Made by a program: the position numbers and the translations under genes
Assembly: GCF_028290105.1 (NCBI RefSeq)
Contig: NZ_JAQGKL010000015.1
Location: 1-64,000, forward strand
Direction of reading: 5' to 3'
Length of the DNA stretch: 64,000 nt
Source of the DNA: Methylobacterium sp.
GTDB lineage: Bacteria > Pseudomonadota > Alphaproteobacteria > Rhizobiales > Beijerinckiaceae
In this document: one piece after another, positions 47,678-57,704 of the stretch
Layout: every line of letters starts with the position of its first letter
Numbering within the stretch: position 1 is the first letter of the stretch
Notes under the pieces: generated by a model
What the model was told of the DNA's origin: nothing
Seen by the model: only the letters and a program-made list of their open reading frames with translations
The model's database searches: none

Positions 47678-47829
47678 GCCGGCCGCGCTTAAGCATGCGT
47701 TGACCAGCCTGTCACGGCTCGGCGATGATCCCGCAACGCTTTCGGCGTTCGTGCGTTTGCTGCGACCGGGCCTCTCCGACGAGCGGGCGCGGGACGTCGA
47801 ATTTCGACAGATTCCAGGGAGTTGAGAAC

Positions 47830-48120
47830 GTGCTGAGGAAACTCGTGTTGGCCGCGCTTCTGGCCCTAGGCTTTGCCGCCACGGCGCCGCAGGGCGCCTC
47901 GGCCGCCCCGATCGGTCCCGCCCTCGCCCTTCAAAGCGAGGCCGCGCCGGCTGCCGTGCAGACCGTGCAGTATTACGGCTACCGTCGCCGCTTCTATGGC
48001 CCGCGCCGTTTCTACGGCCCGCGTCCGTTCTATGGCCGCCGCTACTACGGCCCGCGTCGCTTCTATGGCCCGCGTCCCTATTACGGCCGCCGGTTCTACG
48101 GCCCTCGCCGCTTCTACTGA
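47830..48120 (+). CDS. Secreted Tyr/Arg/Gly repeat protein
   Basis: GTG-start VLRKLVLAALLALGFAATAPQGASA signal peptide; C-terminus RRRFYGPRRFYGPRPFYGRRYYGPRRFYGPRPYYGRRFYGPRRFY. Confidence 0.65.
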   Translation: MLRKLVLAALLALGFAATAPQGASAAPIGPALALQSEAAPAAVQTVQYYGYRRRFYGPRRFYGPRPFYGRRYYGPRRFYGPRPYYGRRFYGPRRFY

Positions 48121-48939: not shown

Positions 48940-50088
48940 TCAGGCGTTGGGCGCGGCCACCTTCTGGCGCAGGCCCGTGATCACCGCCTTCAGGATGTCC
49001 GCGTCGGCGTTGCTGCTGCCCATGCAGCGCACCGTCTCGATGCGCTCGTGCACGAAGGACAGCTTGGCGATCACCGCCGGTGTCAGCTTGAACGGGAAGA
49101 GCGCGGGCTGGCCCATGCTGCGGCTCAGGGAATTGACCGCGTAGGTCAGCGGCAGCCATGTCTCCACGATTCGGCTGAAATCCGACATCCGGTAGGGATC
49201 GAAATCGATCACCACAGGCTCGGCGGGGCCGTGACGCAGGCGCGGGCGCACGTGCATCTCGAACGTGCTCGCCGTCTCCAACGTGTCGACGATGTGCAGG
49301 TACTGCGCCCAGGTCTCGGCGAAATCCTCCCACGGATGGGCGGTCGCATAGGCGCTGACGAAGCTCTCTTCCCAGTTCGGCGGCGCGCCTTGGGCGTAGT
49401 GGCGCTGGAGCGCGCCCGAGTAGTTGATCCGCTCGTCCCCGAACAGAGACCGGAAGGTCCAGATGCTCTGGTCGTAGCGCACCAGGACGTTCCAGAAGTA
49501 ATGCCCGATCTCGTGCCGGAAATGCCCGAGCAGGGTTCGGTAATACTCGCCGAACAGCATTCGCCGGCGCTCACGCTCGACGTCGTCGGCCTCGGCGATG
49601 TTGAGGGTTATGAGGCCGCTGCGATGGCCCGTCAGAACCGGCGGCCCGATCTGGTAGCTCTCGGACGGATCGACGAGAAAGTCGAAGGCGAGGCCGGTCG
49701 TCGGGTTCTCGTCCCGCGTCATCAGGGGCAGGTCGAGGCGCAGCAGCGAGTAGAACAGCCGATGCTTGGCCGCCTCGATCTGACGCCATCGGGTCAGGTT
49801 CCAGCCGATCGAGAGATCCGGGACCACGCGATTGTGCCGGCAGGTGACGCAGTAGCGGTTCGGAGAATCCTCCGGCACCAGCCAGTTGCAGGCATCGAAA
49901 TGAGCGTTGGCGCAGAAGCGATACTTGCGGGCTGGGTTCGCGTAGGCGTGCCAGACGCCGCCAACGGGTTCCAGAGCCGACATCTCGTGGATGTCGCTGG
50001 CGTAGCCAAGCCGGCGCTCGCAGCTCTCGCAATGGGTGCTCTCGAAGCTGATCGGCTGGTCGCAAGCCTGACACTGGAAGATCTTCAT
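48940..50088 (-). CDS. Zinc-ribbon putative zinc-binding metallopeptidase
   Basis: N-terminal CQACDQPISFESTHCESCERRLGY zinc ribbon; HEIGHYFW and downstream acidic WEDFAETWAQYLHIVDTLETA. Confidence 0.85.
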   Translation of the reverse strand: MKIFQCQACDQPISFESTHCESCERRLGYASDIHEMSALEPVGGVWHAYANPARKYRFCANAHFDACNWLVPEDSPNRYCVTCRHNRVVPDLSIGWNLTRWRQIEAAKHRLFYSLLRLDLPLMTRDENPTTGLAFDFLVDPSESYQIGPPVLTGHRSGLITLNIAEADDVERERRRMLFGEYYRTLLGHFRHEIGHYFWNVLVRYDQSIWTFRSLFGDERINYSGALQRHYAQGAPPNWEESFVSAYATAHPWEDFAETWAQYLHIVDTLETASTFEMHVRPRLRHGPAEPVVIDFDPYRMSDFSRIVETWLPLTYAVNSLSRSMGQPALFPFKLTPAVIAKLSFVHERIETVRCMGSSNADADILKAVITGLRQKVAAPNA

Positions 50089-50518
50089 GGAGCCGTCGTG
50101 GGACGCCTTTCCTGTCGCTGTGAAAGCCGCGCAGAGCGTTGCATAGCACACCGCCGGTGAACGGACTGCCCCCCGTGGACGCGTCCACCGTCGAACCGAT
50201 GCGCCTCAGCATGCCAAAGTGCGTGTCGCGGGCGAAGTTCCGGCCGCCGGTGTGCAGCGGGGGGTCGGTTGCAGGGTGCATGAAACTTGCAAGCCGATGA
50301 GCATCCGGATGCGTCTCGGCTGCCCGCGCCGGGAGCGACCGGACGCCGCGAACAACCACAAGGCCGTTGCCCGCAAGGGCATCGCGCATGGGGCCCGGTT
50401 CGCGTATGTCATCGTGAAGCTTGCTCCGGGACACCGCAGGGCGGTGCCCGGTTCCTCCGCAACCGGTGCGTGCCTCGTCGCACGCCCGGCGCCCTGTCCA
50501 GATACAGCGGGAGCCCCC

Positions 50519-53500
50519 GTGTCGATCAAAGCCGCCCTGCATCACGTCACGCACTACACCTATGACCGGCCGATCGCGCTCGGCCCTCAGGTGATCCGCC
50601 TGCGCCCGGCGCCGCATACGCGCACCGCCGTGCCGGCCTACTCGCTGAAGGTCCTGCCGGAAAACCACTTCATCAACTGGCAGCAGGACCCGAACGGCAA
50701 CTGGCTCGCCCGTCTCATCTTCCCCGAGAAGACAACCGAACTGAAGATCGAAGTCGATCTCACCGCCGACATGTCGGTGATCAACCCGTTCGACTTCTTC
50801 GTGGAGGACTACGCACAGGTCCGCGGCTTCACCTACGCGGAGGATCTGACCGCCGAACTGAAGCCCTACCTCGTTCTCGACGAGGCGATGGCGCCCGAGG
50901 TCGACGCGTTCCTGGAGCGGTTGCCCGGCGAACAGAACACGGTGCTGTTCCTCGTGGCGCTGAACGCGCAGGTGGCGCAGGAGATCACCTACGGCGTGCG
51001 CATGGAGCCCGGCGTTCAGAGCGCCGCCGAGACCCTGACCCTAAAGAGCGGCTCCTGCCGGGACTCGGCCTGGCTGATGGTGCAGATCCTGCGCCGCCTT
51101 GGCATGGCCGCCCGCTTCGTCTCGGGCTACCTGATCCAGCTCGTTCCCGACACCACCGCCGTGGACGGCCCGGCCGGCACCACGACCGACTTCACCGACC
51201 TGCACGCCTGGGCCGAGGTCTACCTGCCGGGTGCGGGCTGGATCGGGCTCGACGCCACCTCCGGCCTGCTCTGCGGCGAGGGCCACATCCCGCTTGCCGC
51301 CACCCCGCACTACGCCTCCGCCGCCCCGATCTCGGGGCTTGCCGAGCCCGCGAAGGTCGAGTTCGGCTTCGAGATGTCGGTGACCCGCGTGGCGGAAGCC
51401 CCGCGCATCACGAAGCCATTCTCCGAGGAGGTCTGGGCCGCGATGGACGCGCTCGGCGAGCGCATCGACGTGGACCTGTCCGCGCAGGACGTGCGCCTGA
51501 CCATGGGCGGCGAGCCGACCTTCGTCTCGGTCGACGACTTCGAGTCCGCCGAATGGAACGCCTCCGCCGTCGGCCCGACGAAGCGGGGCCTCGCCGACAA
51601 GCTGATCCGGCGCCTGCGCACCCGTTTCGCGCCGGGCGGCATGCTGCATTACGGCCAGGGCAAGTGGTACCCGGGCGAGAGCCTGCCGCGCTGGGCCTTC
51701 GCCCTCTATTGGCGCCGGGACGGGGTACCAATCTGGAAGGATGCCGCCCTCATCGCGCCCGAGGACGGTGCGCGCGACGCGAACATCCACAACGCGAAGG
51801 ACCTCATCGATGGCGTCGCCCGGCGCCTCGGGCTCGGCGCCTACGTGTTCCCGGCCTTCGAGGACCCGGTTTACTGGGGCGAGAAGCGTGACGACCTGCC
51901 GGTCAACGTCACCACCGCGGAGCCGCACTACCCGAACCCGGAGACGAATGCCCGCATGGCACGGGTGTTCGAGCGCGGCCTCGGCGAGGCCGCCGGTTAC
52001 GCCCTGCCGCTGGCGAGCCTGCCCACCGGCAAGGACGGCGATTCCGATCGGCTCTGGATCTCCGAACCCTGGGAATTCCGGCGCGGCCACGCCTTCCTGA
52101 CCCCCGGCGATTCGCCCGTGGGCTACCGCCTGCCGCTCTCCTCGCTGCCCTACGTGGCGCAGGAGCACTACCCCTACTACCAGCCGCAGGACACGCTGGA
52201 AGCGCGCGACGCCCTGCCCGAAGGGCATCCCGGCACCAAGACCGTCAACGGCTCCGGCGTGATGGGTGTGGCCGTGCGCACCGCCTTCGCGGTGGAGCCG
52301 CGCGACGGGGTGCTCCACGTCTTCATGCCGCCGCTGCAGCGGGTGGACGAGTACCTCGAACTCCTCGGCCACCTGGAAGACGCGGCCGCCGAGCTGAAGC
52401 TGACCCTGCATATCGAGGGCTACGAGCCGCCCTTCGACCCGCGCCTGAACGTCATCAAGGTGACCCCCGATCCCGGCGTGATCGAGGTCAACGTGCATCC
52501 GGCGCCCACCTGGCGCGACGCCGTCCGGATCACCAGCGACCTCTACGAGGACGCCCGGCAGATCCGCCTCGGGGCGCAGAAGTTCATGACCGACGGACGC
52601 CACACCGGCACGGGCGGCGGCAACCACGTGGTGCTCGGCGGCGCGACGCCGAACGATTCGCCGTTCCTGCGCCGGCCCGACCTGCTGAAGAGCCTCGTGC
52701 TCTACTGGCAGCGCCACCCGGCGATGTCCTACCTCTTCGCCGGCCTCTATATCGGCCCGACGAGCCAGGCCCCGCGCATGGACGAGGCGCGACACGACGG
52801 GCTCTACGAGCTCGAGATCGCGATGGCGCAGGTGCCGAAACCCGACGAGCCCAACATCCCGCGCTGGCTCGTGGACCGCATCTTCCGCAACATCCTCGTG
52901 GACGTGACGGGCAACACCCACCGCTCCGAGATCTGCATCGACAAGCTCTACTCGCCGGACGGACCCACGGGCCGCCTCGGGCTGCTCGAATTCCGTTCGT
53001 TCGAGATGCCGCCGGACCCGCGCATGAGTCTCGCCCAGCAGCTCCTGCTGCGCGCCATCGTGGCCTGGCTCTGGCGCGAGCCGCAGACGGGAGGCTGTGT
53101 CCGCTGGGGCACGGGCCTGCACGATCGCTTCATGCTGCCCCACTTCCTGTGGGCCGACTTCGTCGGCGTGCTGGAAGACCTCCGGGCCGCCGGCTACGAC
53201 TTCGACCCGGCGGCCTTCGTGGCGCAGCGCGAGTTCCGCTTCCCGGTCTTCGGGACGGTGGAGCAGGGCGGCGTGAAGCTGGAGCTGCGCCAAGCCCTCG
53301 AACCCTGGCACGTTCTGGGCGAGGAGGGCGCGATCGGGGGAACGGTGCGGTACGTGGATTCGTCGGTGGAACGGCTGCAGGTGAAGGTCGAGGGCTATGT
53401 CCCCGGCCGGCACATCATCGCCTGCAACGGGCGGCGCCTGCCGATGACCGGTACCGGTGTCGCCGGCGAGGCGGTGGCGGGCCTGCGCTTCAAGGCGTGG

Positions 53501-53803
53501 CAGCCGGCCTCGTCCCTGCACCCGACCATTCCGGCCCATTCGCCGCTCACCATCGACATCCTGGATGCCTGGAGCGGACGCTCGCTGGGTGGGTGCCGCT
53601 ACCATGTCAGCCATCCGGGCGGACGCAACTACGAAACCTTCCCGGTCAACACCTACGAGGCCGAGGGGCGGCGTCTCGCCCGCTTCCAGGCCCATGGCCA
53701 CACCCCGGGCCGGATCGCGATGCCGCCGGAGGAGACCAACCGCGAGTTCCCGATGACGCTCGACCTGCGCACGCCGGCACCTCCGGGCTACACGCCCCAA
53801 TGA
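50519..53803 (+). CDS. Transglutaminase-like protein fused to DUF2126
   Basis: GTG start [36 protein letters not shown]; transglutaminase triad [12 protein letters not shown] / [23 protein letters not shown]; long C-terminal DUF2126 region. Confidence 0.93.
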
Positions 53804-56319
53804 GCGAAGCGGCCGAAGCGGAGGTCCGGGGACGGGCCGAGCGCCTCGCGCGCTGGACCTCCGCCTACAGGCCGCAGGCCGGGGTGCCGGACGAGTTCAT
53901 GGATGCGGAGGGCCGGACCAAGGGGGCCTGGCCGCGCTTCCTCGACCGTCTCGGCGACCTCGACGAAGCGGAGATCGGCACCCGCTTCGTCTCGGCGGTG
54001 CGCCGGATCCGGGACACCGGGATCTCGTACCGGATCTACGGCGACAAGCGCGACCATGCCTGGCCATTAGGGTCTCTGCCCCTCGTCATCGAGCAGGCCG
54101 ACTGGGAGACCTTGAGCGCCGGCATCATCGAGCGCGCCGGGCTCATGGAATCGATCCTGGCCGACGTCTACGGCGCGGGGCGTCTCGTGGGCGAGGGTCT
54201 GTTGCCGGCGGCCGTCGTCGCGGGCAGCCCGGAATTCATGCGCCCCCTCGTGGGCGTCGCCCCCCCGGGCGGGCGCTACCTCAAGCTCTACGCGGCGGAC
54301 GTGACGCGCGGGCCCGACGGGCGCTGGCGGGTCCTGGCCGACCGGACGCAATCGCCCTCGGGGCCGGGCTACGCGCTGGAGAACCGCCTCGTCCTCACCC
54401 GGGCCTTTCCGGATCTCCATGCCGACCTGCAGGTCGAGCGCCTCGCCGCCTTCTTCCAGGCCCTTCGCGACGGGTTGGCGGCGGGGGCCGAGCGCAGCGA
54501 TCCGCGCATCTGCCTGCTGACCTCCGGCGTGTTCAGCTCGACCTATGTCGAGCAGGCGGCGCTCGCCCGCTACCTTGGCCTGTTGCTCGTCGAGGGCGAC
54601 GACCTCGTGATGCAGGACGGCGCCCTGCACATCCGCACCGTCTCCGGCCTGAAGCGCGCCGACGTGCTATGGCGGCGTATCGATTCCGACTACGTCGATC
54701 CCCTCGAACTCAACCCGGCCTCGCGCCTCGGGGTGCCCGGCCTCGTCGAGGCCCTGCGCAACGGCAGCCTCGTCGTCGGCAACATGCCCGGCTCGGGGCT
54801 GCTCGAGTCGGGCGCGCTCGCCGCCTACCTGCCGGGCATCGCCCGAAGATTGCTCGGCACCGACCTCCAACTCGCAGGTCCGAAGACGTGGTGGTGCGGC
54901 GATCCGGACGCCCTGGCCGAGGTTCGCGACAACCTCGATACCCTGAGCCTGCGGCCGGTGGCGACACCGCCCAAGGGAGCGGTCCGGGACGCGATCCTGG
55001 CCCCCCACGCCCTCGACGCCGAGCGCGACCGGCTGCTCTCGGCCCTGCGCGACCGCCCCTTCGACTATGTCGCCCAGGAAGCGATGCCGCTCGCCACCAT
55101 GCCGGCCTGGGACCGGACCGGCGGCACCCTCAAGCTGGTGCCGCGGCCCTTCGTGCTGCGGGTGTTCGCGGCGGCGACGGCCGACGGATGGCGCGTGATG
55201 CCGGGCGGCTTCTGCCGGATCTCGGAGCGGCCCGACGTCGAGCCGCTGGAGATGCGCGCCGGCATCAAGTCCGCCGACGTCTGGATCCTGTCGCGCGATC
55301 CCGTCGAGGCGGTCACGCTGATCCAGCCGGGCTCGGCCCGGGTGCGCCGCATCGCCGGGCACCTGCCGTCGCGGGCCGCCGACAACCTGTTCTGGTTCGG
55401 ACGCTACGTCGAACGGGCGGAGGCGGTGATCCGCCTCGTCATCGCGCATCTCGGCAGCGTCGGCTCGGCTGTGATCGCCGACATGGCGGGTGACGCCAAG
55501 GCGCCGACGGCGCTTCGCATCCGCGCGCTCCTCGACGAGTGGGGCGCCATCGAGGCGCCGGACCTGCCCACGGCGGCCCTGGCCCAGCAGGCGCTGAGCG
55601 GGCCGGACGCCTATGGCTCCGCCCTCCGCCACAGCCTCTCGGCCCGGGCCAACGCCGCCACCTTGCGCGAACGCCTCTCAGGCGAAGCGTGGCGGGCATT
55701 GGCCGACCTCAAGGACCTCTTGGAGATCGATCCGGCTCAAGGTCTGCCCGAGGCCCAGCTTCTCGGCCTCGCGGAGCGGGCGCTCAGCCACATCGCGGCC
55801 CTGTCGGGGTTGGCCCAGGAGAACATGAACCGCACCGCCGGCTGGCATTTCGTCGATCTCGGCCGGCGCATCGAGCGGGCGATCAACACCTGCGCCTTCG
55901 CCACGCGTTTCGCCGGCGATGCGGCGACCGCCGAGGATCTCGGCGTGATGCTGTCGCTCTGCGATGCCCATGTCTCGTTCGGCGCGCGCTACCTCCAGGG
56001 CGTCGCCCTCGACCCCGTGCGCGACATGGTGCTCCTCGACCCCTTCAACCCGCGCTCGGTGGCCTTCCAGGTGGAGGCGATCGCACGCCATCTCGGCCAG
56101 TTGCCGGTGCTGCGGGCCGACGGCCTTCCCGAGCCGCACCAGCGCCTCGCGGCCAAGCTCGCGGCGGAGTTCGCCACCGGCGAGGCGGCGGAGTTCGACG
56201 GCGCCGCCCTGACCCGGCTGGAGAACGAGGTCGAGCACCTCGCCGACGCCATCGCCACCCGCTACTTCCCCAACGGGCCGCACGCCCTGCGCCCCGAAAA
56301 GCTCGTGGGTCTCGCGTGA
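53800..56319 (+). CDS. Circularly permuted ATP-grasp (DUF404/DUF407) fused to alpha-E domain (DUF403)
   Basis: [85 protein letters not shown], then [25 protein letters not shown] (alpha-E start); 4-nt overlaps at both ends. Confidence 0.93.
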
Positions 56320-57233
56320 TCTACACGCTGCGCCATCTCACCACCTACCGCTACGCCCGCCCCGTGCGCTTCGCGCGCTGCGCCCTGCGCCTGCGCCCTC
56401 GCGACGGCGAGGGCCAGACGGTGCTCGACAGTTCACTCACCATCAGCCCCGAGCCGGGCACCCGCGTAGTGCGGCGCGACTATTTCGGCCTCGACGTGGT
56501 CTGCGTGACGATCGATGCGCCGCACACCGAGCTGCGGGTCGAATCCCTGTCGCGGGTGCGGGTGGAGCGCGACCCGCTGCCCGCGCCGGAATCCGGGCGT
56601 CCCTGGGAACAGGTGCGTGACGCGGCCGTGACCGGACGGGGCCTCGGACCGGAGCGCCCCGTGCATTTCCAGTTCCCGAGCGTGCGGGTGCCCCTGGTGC
56701 CGGTGGTGACGGATTACGCCCGGCCGAGCTTCCCGCCCGGCCGCAGCGCCTATGGCGGAGCATTCGACCTGATGCGGCGCATCCGGGCGGACTTCAAATT
56801 CGATTCGAAGGCCACCAGCGTGCACACGCCTCTGGCCGAAGCCTTTGCGCTCCGGGCCGGCGTCTGCCAGGATTTCACCCACATCATGATCGCGGCCCTG
56901 CGTGGCCTCGGCCTGCCGGCCGCCTATGTCAGCGGCTACCTGCGCACGATCCCCCCCGCCGGCCGGCCGCGCCTGCGCGGGGCTGATGCGAGCCACGCCT
57001 GGGTTTCGGTCTGGTGCGGGGACGGCTGGATCGGCCTCGACCCGACCAACGGGATCGGCATGTGCGACGACCACATCGTGGTGGCGCGCGGGCGCGACTA
57101 CACCGACGTCTCGCCCATCGACGGGATCGTGTCCTCGTCCGGGCCGCAGAAGCTCAAAGTCGAAGTCGACGTCATTCCGGATGGCGAGCCCATGCCGGAG
57201 CATTCCACGACGCCCGAGACCGCCTCCGCCTGA
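56316..57233 (+). CDS. Transglutaminase-like cysteine peptidase family protein
   Basis: GTG start [34 protein letters not shown]; triad ALRAGVCQDFTHIM / DASHAWVSVWCGDGWIGLDPTNG. Confidence 0.93.
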   Translation: MIYTLRHLTTYRYARPVRFARCALRLRPRDGEGQTVLDSSLTISPEPGTRVVRRDYFGLDVVCVTIDAPHTELRVESLSRVRVERDPLPAPESGRPWEQVRDAAVTGRGLGPERPVHFQFPSVRVPLVPVVTDYARPSFPPGRSAYGGAFDLMRRIRADFKFDSKATSVHTPLAEAFALRAGVCQDFTHIMIAALRGLGLPAAYVSGYLRTIPPAGRPRLRGADASHAWVSVWCGDGWIGLDPTNGIGMCDDHIVVARGRDYTDVSPIDGIVSSSGPQKLKVEVDVIPDGEPMPEHSTTPETASA

Positions 57234-57251: not shown

Positions 57252-57704
57252 TCAGACCGTGCGCGCCGTAAACAGCCGGAACGCCTCCAGCGTCTCGGCG
57301 CTGACATGGTGTTCGATGCCCTCGGCGTCGCGGCGTGCGATCTCGGGGCTGACGCCGAGGGCGCAGAGAAACTGCTCGACGATGCGGTGGCGCTCGCGGC
57401 TCTGCACGGCGAGTGCCTGGCCCGCCTCCGTCAGGAATACGCCGCGATAGGGGCGCTGCTGCACCAGGCCGTCCTCGGCCAGGCGCTTGAGCATCTTGGC
57501 GACCGTCGGCTGGGCGACGCCGAGGCGGGCCGCGATGTCGACCTGGCGTGCCTCGCCGCCATCCCCGATCAGGTCGGCGATCAGCTCGACATAGTCTTCC
57601 ACGAGTTCGAGGCGGCGCGCCTCGCGGGCCTGCCGGAAGCTCTCCACATGGACGTCGGCGTCGATGAGGGCGGTGTCGGGCGTGGAGGACGTCGGATCCT
57701 GCAT
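57252..57704 (-). CDS. mntR: Manganese-dependent transcriptional regulator MntR (DtxR family)
   Basis: [66 protein letters not shown]...GIEHHVS. Confidence 0.9.

Follow-up and report, generated by a model that had tools for sequence, protein, structure and literature searches.

A degenerate fused ATP-grasp in a Methylobacterium DUF2126 operon points to a canonical ATP-grasp encoded elsewhere in the genome

Gene sets that combine a circularly permuted (CP) ATP-grasp, an alpha-E protein and a transglutaminase (TG) have been proposed to ligate or tag peptides, which raises the question of which of their proteins makes the amide bond. We addressed this question for an operon of Methylobacterium sp. 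in the window, that is, the whole 64,000-nucleotide stretch analysed (contig NZ_JAQGKL010000015.1, positions 1 to 64,000). The operon encodes a TG-DUF2126 protein, a CP-ATP-grasp fused to alpha-E and a second, stand-alone TG, and it is divergent from the gene of a Peptidase_Mx metallopeptidase (Mx). The original prediction placed it among the systems named above, and this holds, the three families being found together; the system is itself a published prediction (2009), hence not new, and the operon is a version of it. Our reading, to which we assign a probability of about 0.5, is that the operon is an accessory "DUF2126 module" of the CP-ATP-grasp/alpha-E/TG system, a predicted cytoplasmic pathway that would form and remodel amide- or isopeptide-linked peptides or peptide tags on proteins, for which the canonical ATP-grasp is supplied in trans.

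The fused ATP-grasp had been put forward as the ligase. To assess its active site, 97 fused ATP-grasps from DUF2126-type loci were aligned with 19 stand-alone ones; the fused set comes mostly from Methylobacterium and other Pseudomonadota, and its members are hence not all independent. All 19/19 stand-alone proteins share an invariant E-x-N metal pair, GGYG loop and NSS motif, which are gone from nearly all fused ones. Of the positions that never vary among the stand-alone proteins, E194 survives in 1/97 fused proteins and N196 in none (94/97 have R there); within the GGYG loop, Y410 and G411 persist in one and two, respectively, and D353, D354, K355, D462 and N494-S495-S496 are each absent from all 97. 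K402 is retained by 13/97. In the window protein A180 replaces E194 and R182 replaces N196. In trypanothione synthetase, Asp330, Glu344 and Asn346 are the Mg ligands and Ser351 binds the substrate carboxylate (PMC3581523). The spacing of canonical D181/E194/N196/S201 equals that of these four residues within one residue, an argument from spacing and not a computed alignment, and on this map the window protein would have D167 and S187, with A180 and R182 at the other two metal ligands.

The alpha-E signature residues (R-x2-E-R and E-R motifs) are conserved in fused and stand-alone forms, so that only the ATP-grasp half is affected by the residue loss. The fused proteins conserve the motif that took over, DRTQ-PSG, and an actinobacterial relative (Tsukamurella) has the same change (VADRTQAPSG), which favours an old, retained function over decay. 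In a 48-row tree, a single branch of length 1.53 (support 100/100) parts the fused from the stand-alone forms. A Foldseek search with the predicted model of the ATP-grasp half (predicted local distance difference test, pLDDT, 68) matched 3n6x at 1.2e-20 and glutathione synthetases at about 1e-6. The modelled fold is thus kept, the chemistry probably not. Since the Mg and ATP residues are lost, the fused ATP-grasp of the operon is probably not the ligase; the original prediction, which had named such a loss as refuting, fails at this point, as the catalytic residues are missing throughout the fused subfamily. The working ligase is more probably its partner, or else a paralogue whose gene lies in another part of the genome.

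Such a paralogue was found in the same assembly (4.16 Mb, 316 contigs), which holds two alpha-E copies, one DUF2126 and one Mx. Contig C117 (locus L005, 1856-6128) carries a four-gene operon encoding an ATP-grasp, an alpha-E protein, a TG and a proteasome-like protein. The active site of this ATP-grasp is intact, with Mg and ATP residues present. The proteasome-like protein matches solved Anbu structures (1.5e-78 to 7.6e-59), and Thr1, Asp17 and Lys32 are present, read from the sequence at the positions given in PMC6376114. The earlier statement that no Anbu gene is visible is therefore correct for the window but not for the genome: because of this complete operon on C117, the window operon is a paralogous module without Anbu, alongside a textbook Anbu operon in the same genome.

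The same pairing recurred in a survey of 299 Pseudomonadota genomes. Alpha-E was present in 171 and DUF2126 in 92, all of them among the 171 (Fisher p 2e-29, uncorrected for phylogeny). When the C117 ATP-grasp was used as query, all 80 DUF2126 genomes searched (53 genera) gave a match, the best one always canonical with at least 49% identity, and most of them also held a 27-38% fused paralogue beside DUF2126. On the Enterobacter roggenkampii IncFII plasmid NZ_CP116251.1 (L139, 7603-16794), genes for ATP-grasp, alpha-E, TG-DUF2126, fused ATP-grasp-alpha-E and TG lie side by side, indicating that the whole system can move. This five-gene module, from a blood isolate, is located near insertion sequence elements and arsC. 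Because all 80 DUF2126 genomes tested carry a canonical ATP-grasp, the simplest reading is a one-way dependency of the DUF2126 module on the canonical set, which supplies the catalytic ATP-grasp. A catalytic role of the canonical protein is supported by the release of inorganic phosphate from ATP by the ATP-grasp of the Yersinia bercovieri Anbu operon (PMC6376114).

Should an amide bond be formed, better candidates for catalysing it are DUF2126, predicted to resemble glutamine synthetase (GS), and the intact ATP-grasp of the C117 Anbu operon. In the pathway that we propose, the canonical ATP-grasp would act in trans, activating a carboxylate as acyl phosphate and making the first amide bond, and DUF2126 would perform a second ligation. 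The fused ATP-grasp-alpha-E protein would be a non-catalytic scaffold that holds the substrate and brings alpha-E to DUF2126 and the TG. Transfer or hydrolysis of the product would then fall to the TG-type Cys enzymes, and Mx, like Anbu in the sister operon, would trim or remove it. A bolder version makes the DUF2126 module the second half of one conjugation-deconjugation pathway: the ATP-grasp encoded elsewhere starts the peptide, DUF2126 is the second ligase, an ancient ATP-grasp pseudoenzyme, joined to alpha-E, serves as an obligate subunit that presents the substrate, the TGs transfer it and Mx removes it, in a ubiquitin- or Pup-like cycle outside those known. We regard this version as speculative and rather unlikely.

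The weak link of the proposal is DUF2126. Pfam labels this family (PF09899) a putative amidoligase, and the match is full-length (1268.6 bits, profile 2-826/826) with an N-terminal TG core. Three motifs of the domain, E-x-N, TGTGGGNH and LEFRSFE, do not vary across homologues, and by eye they resemble those of GS. Several observations weigh against the proposal as a whole. The AlphaFold model of DUF2126 is weak (pLDDT 68), and Foldseek against the PDB returned nothing at E<=0.001, only chance-level matches; HHalign comparisons of DUF2126 with GlnA and GCS2 alignments were negative, as was the known GS-GCS2 pair used as positive control. The co-occurrence counts are uncorrected for phylogeny, Mx is unlinked in 40 of the 57 genomes that have it and some of its copies adjoin unrelated genes, and no protein interaction was found among the Y. 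bercovieri Anbu-operon proteins (PMC6376114). Moreover, two TG copies and two peptidases would equally fit a degradation or repair pathway.

We therefore considered a degradative or salvage pathway, in which the TG-type Cys enzymes, Mx and Anbu would serve as isopeptidases or peptidases acting on unusual amide or isopeptide compounds, and proteins resembling ligases would have been modified for sensing or hydrolysis, as Dop has relative to PafA. The two TG-like enzymes and the metallopeptidase in the operon region, the Anbu of the sister operon and a fused ATP-grasp without its ATP site are consistent with this account, as is the upregulation of Anbu in Pseudomonas putida under nitrogen limitation (PMC5666114, PMC6376114). 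However, such a pathway has no obvious need for the intact ATP-grasp that accompanies the module in every genome tested, nor for a DUF2126 whose polar motifs are strongly invariant, and we consider it possible but unlikely. More doubtful is a small-molecule pathway, whose product would be a peptide-like metabolite, akin to a glutathione or polyamine conjugate, instead of a protein tag. The closest folds are those of glutathione synthetase and of glutathionylspermidine synthase-like proteins, and neither a recurrent small open reading frame (tag or precursor) nor any other system-specific shared neighbour was found beside the operon in diverse loci, although this search spans about 20 kb per locus and reading frames of at least 30 aa; from established knowledge of the families, a proteasome-like Anbu and TG domains suit protein substrates. 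Finally, that the fused ATP-grasp is itself the amide ligase, its altered residues serving ATP and Mg, is improbable: the protein matches PF14403 at 2e-129, the fold is kept, its D167, S187, R196, R292/R293 and R454 correspond to conserved residues of the canonical enzymes and the conserved DRTQ-PSG motif argues for a site under selection, but practically all 97 proteins, and the actinobacterial one, have lost the E-x-N pair along with the glycine-rich loop, D462 and NSS, and a canonical copy exists elsewhere in every genome tested.

The accessory-module reading also includes Mx as a candidate partner, as had been proposed, with a survey of its linkage across genomes as the check. In the nearest loci (L006-L063, nearly all from Methylobacterium and Methylorubrum), Mx adjoins DUF2126 in 52/52, six Microvirga/Chelatococcus loci being set aside. 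A full-strength Mx match was obtained in 57 of the 299 genomes, 44 of which also have DUF2126 (p 5e-16, uncorrected for phylogeny) and 56 alpha-E. Mx is linked to DUF2126 or to canonical genes in 17 of these 57, from 10 families: 13 genomes, spread over 7 families, have Mx no more than 12 kb from DUF2126, and the other 4, from 3 further families, have it next to canonical ATP-grasp/alpha-E genes. A rough calculation, with about 30 kb taken as the target in a genome of 5 Mb, gives a chance expectation of less than one linked genome among the 57. The linked gene orders vary, being divergent, co-directional or interleaved; on a Caballeronia plasmid Mx lies between alpha-E and TG-DUF2126, and on a Hymenobacter plasmid (Bacteroidota) it is divergent from TG/alpha-E/ATP-grasp genes. 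With different gene orders in 10 Pseudomonadota families, and in Bacteroidota, Mx is a recurrent, not universal, partner, and the absence of linkage that had been named beforehand as refuting is not what is seen.

Two other contexts of Mx were noted. In the Roseomonas group (L081, 10001-14790; L085, 9935-14784), TG-DUF2126 is the sole partner gene beside Mx: neither a fused ATP-grasp-alpha-E nor a TG was found within about 10 kb, which suggests that the two proteins can function as a pair. On a conjugative plasmid of Sphingobium cloacae (L141, 254-7116), an unlinked Mx lies near Tn7-like TniB/TniQ and small heat-shock (Hsp20) genes, and no ligase genes were present in the stretch around it. 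Mx is not a mere substitute for Anbu, as it occurs with and without Anbu and directly adjoins it in three loci (L125, L126 and L127).

The gene layout of the locus is given in the table. The three plus-strand genes have 4-base stop/start overlaps (ATGA at 53800 and GTGA at 56316), exactly as first described, confirming a translationally coupled operon divergent from Mx; for TG-DUF2126 we infer, from the domain boundary, a GTG start. Of the families named beforehand, PF04174, PF04168, PF09899, PF01841 and PF15887 were recovered in the profile search. The predicted Cys-His-Asp triads of both TGs proved conserved in homologues, the second TG having GVCQDFTH/SHAW/GLDPTNG. The description of Mx as a HEIGH metallopeptidase with a CxxC ribbon was likewise correct: the HEIGH (HExxH) motif and a downstream E (EDFAETW) are conserved in 31 homologues, and the zinc-ribbon CxxC pairs across homologues. 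The nearest public loci are from Methylobacterium species (92-94% identity over Mx), and the divergent arrangement is retained across Methylobacterium/Methylorubrum loci.

Table. Features of the DUF2126 locus, in window coordinates.
Feature	Position	Strand	Evidence
Mx (Peptidase_Mx metallopeptidase), 382 aa, N-terminal zinc ribbon	48940..50088	-	PF15887 4.1e-104, PF10005 9.5e-30
Divergent intergenic region, common to the Mx gene and the operon	50089..50518	.	gene coordinates
TG-DUF2126: N-terminal TG, residues 1-276; DUF2126 putative amidoligase, residues 277-1094	50519..53803	+	PF08379, PF01841, PF09899 (E=0)
Fused CP-ATP-grasp (degenerate active site) and alpha-E, 839 aa	53800..56319	+	PF14403 2e-129, PF04174, PF04168 1.4e-63
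Second TG (stand-alone transglutaminase-like protein), 305 aa, GTG start	56316..57233	+	PF08379, PF01841

Two neighbouring genes were also observed. The one at 47725-48120 (+) encodes a small protein whose N-terminus is signal-like and which contains tandem repeats rich in Arg, Tyr and Gly (RRFYGPRPFYGRRYYGPR). At 57252-57640 (-, start approximate), convergent with the second TG gene, lies a gene for a DtxR/MntR-type metal-dependent regulator (PF01325, PF02742), which could be relevant if Mx is metal-regulated. A phage association was rejected, the similarity to phage being at the level of the TG alone. An anti-phage defence system was also set aside: the PADLOC defence models matched none of the four proteins. 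NCBIfam scans gave no match.

With alpha-E in 171/299, CP-ATP-grasp/alpha-E/TG systems are present in over half of the sampled Pseudomonadota genomes, and they also occur in other phyla. A degenerate ligase-like subunit that travels with an intact paralogue indicates where assays should be aimed and that both gene sets should be kept together, and earlier reconstitutions of single operons may have overlooked the partner. Through its repeated linkage, Mx becomes a candidate product-processing enzyme.

How does the operon compare with known systems? In the abstract of their 2009 paper, Iyer et al. reportedly predicted a widespread bacterial tagging system whose components were an ATP-grasp and a GS-like ligase, both circularly permuted, together with an N-terminal nucleophile (Ntn) hydrolase and a novel alpha-helical domain. 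The prediction of the Anbu-type system is summarised in PMC5666114 and PMC6376114. The window operon shares with the Anbu operon the three families CP-ATP-grasp, alpha-E and TG; it differs in the fusion of ATP-grasp to alpha-E, the degenerate ATP-grasp site and the addition of TG-DUF2126 and a divergent metallopeptidase, and no Anbu Ntn-hydrolase is found in the 64 kb. From other DUF2126 systems it does not differ in families, having the arrangement common in Pseudomonadota (N-terminal TG-DUF2126, then ATP-grasp-alpha-E, then TG); what is new is the degenerate ATP-grasp and the constant presence of a canonical one elsewhere in the genome.

In Tsukamurella (NZ_LR134463.1; L205, 9004-12386), a gene for a fused CP-ATP-grasp-alpha-E is followed by an overlapping TG gene, as in the window, and the change from E-x-N to x-D-R-T-Q is shared, whereas no DUF2126 or Peptidase_Mx was annotated or found in the 20 kb stretch. 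This record is labelled a plasmid but may be a chromosomal contig, since aspS, alaS, ruvX and mltG surround the two genes. In Mycobacterium tuberculosis the fused ATP-grasp-alpha-E/TG locus of Mycobacteriales is presumably the Rv2566-Rv2569c region. Searches of the open-licence literature turned up no paper devoted to DUF2126, none on the function of the fused protein or of the M. tuberculosis loci, and no report of a degenerate fused ATP-grasp, of the dependence of the DUF2126 module on the canonical set or of Mx membership. With glutathione synthetase and glutathionylspermidine synthase-like enzymes (3n6x, 2hgs), the ATP-grasp half shares the fold, but the Mg ligands and the glycine-rich loop are missing. 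RloABC and RimK-RimB offer a comparison in the way of working, with an ATP-grasp and a protease in one operon and, in RloABC, also a TG-like protein; there, however, the ATP-grasp is of a different family, the protease is an aspartic one and the TG is membrane-bound and inactive (PMC12239564).

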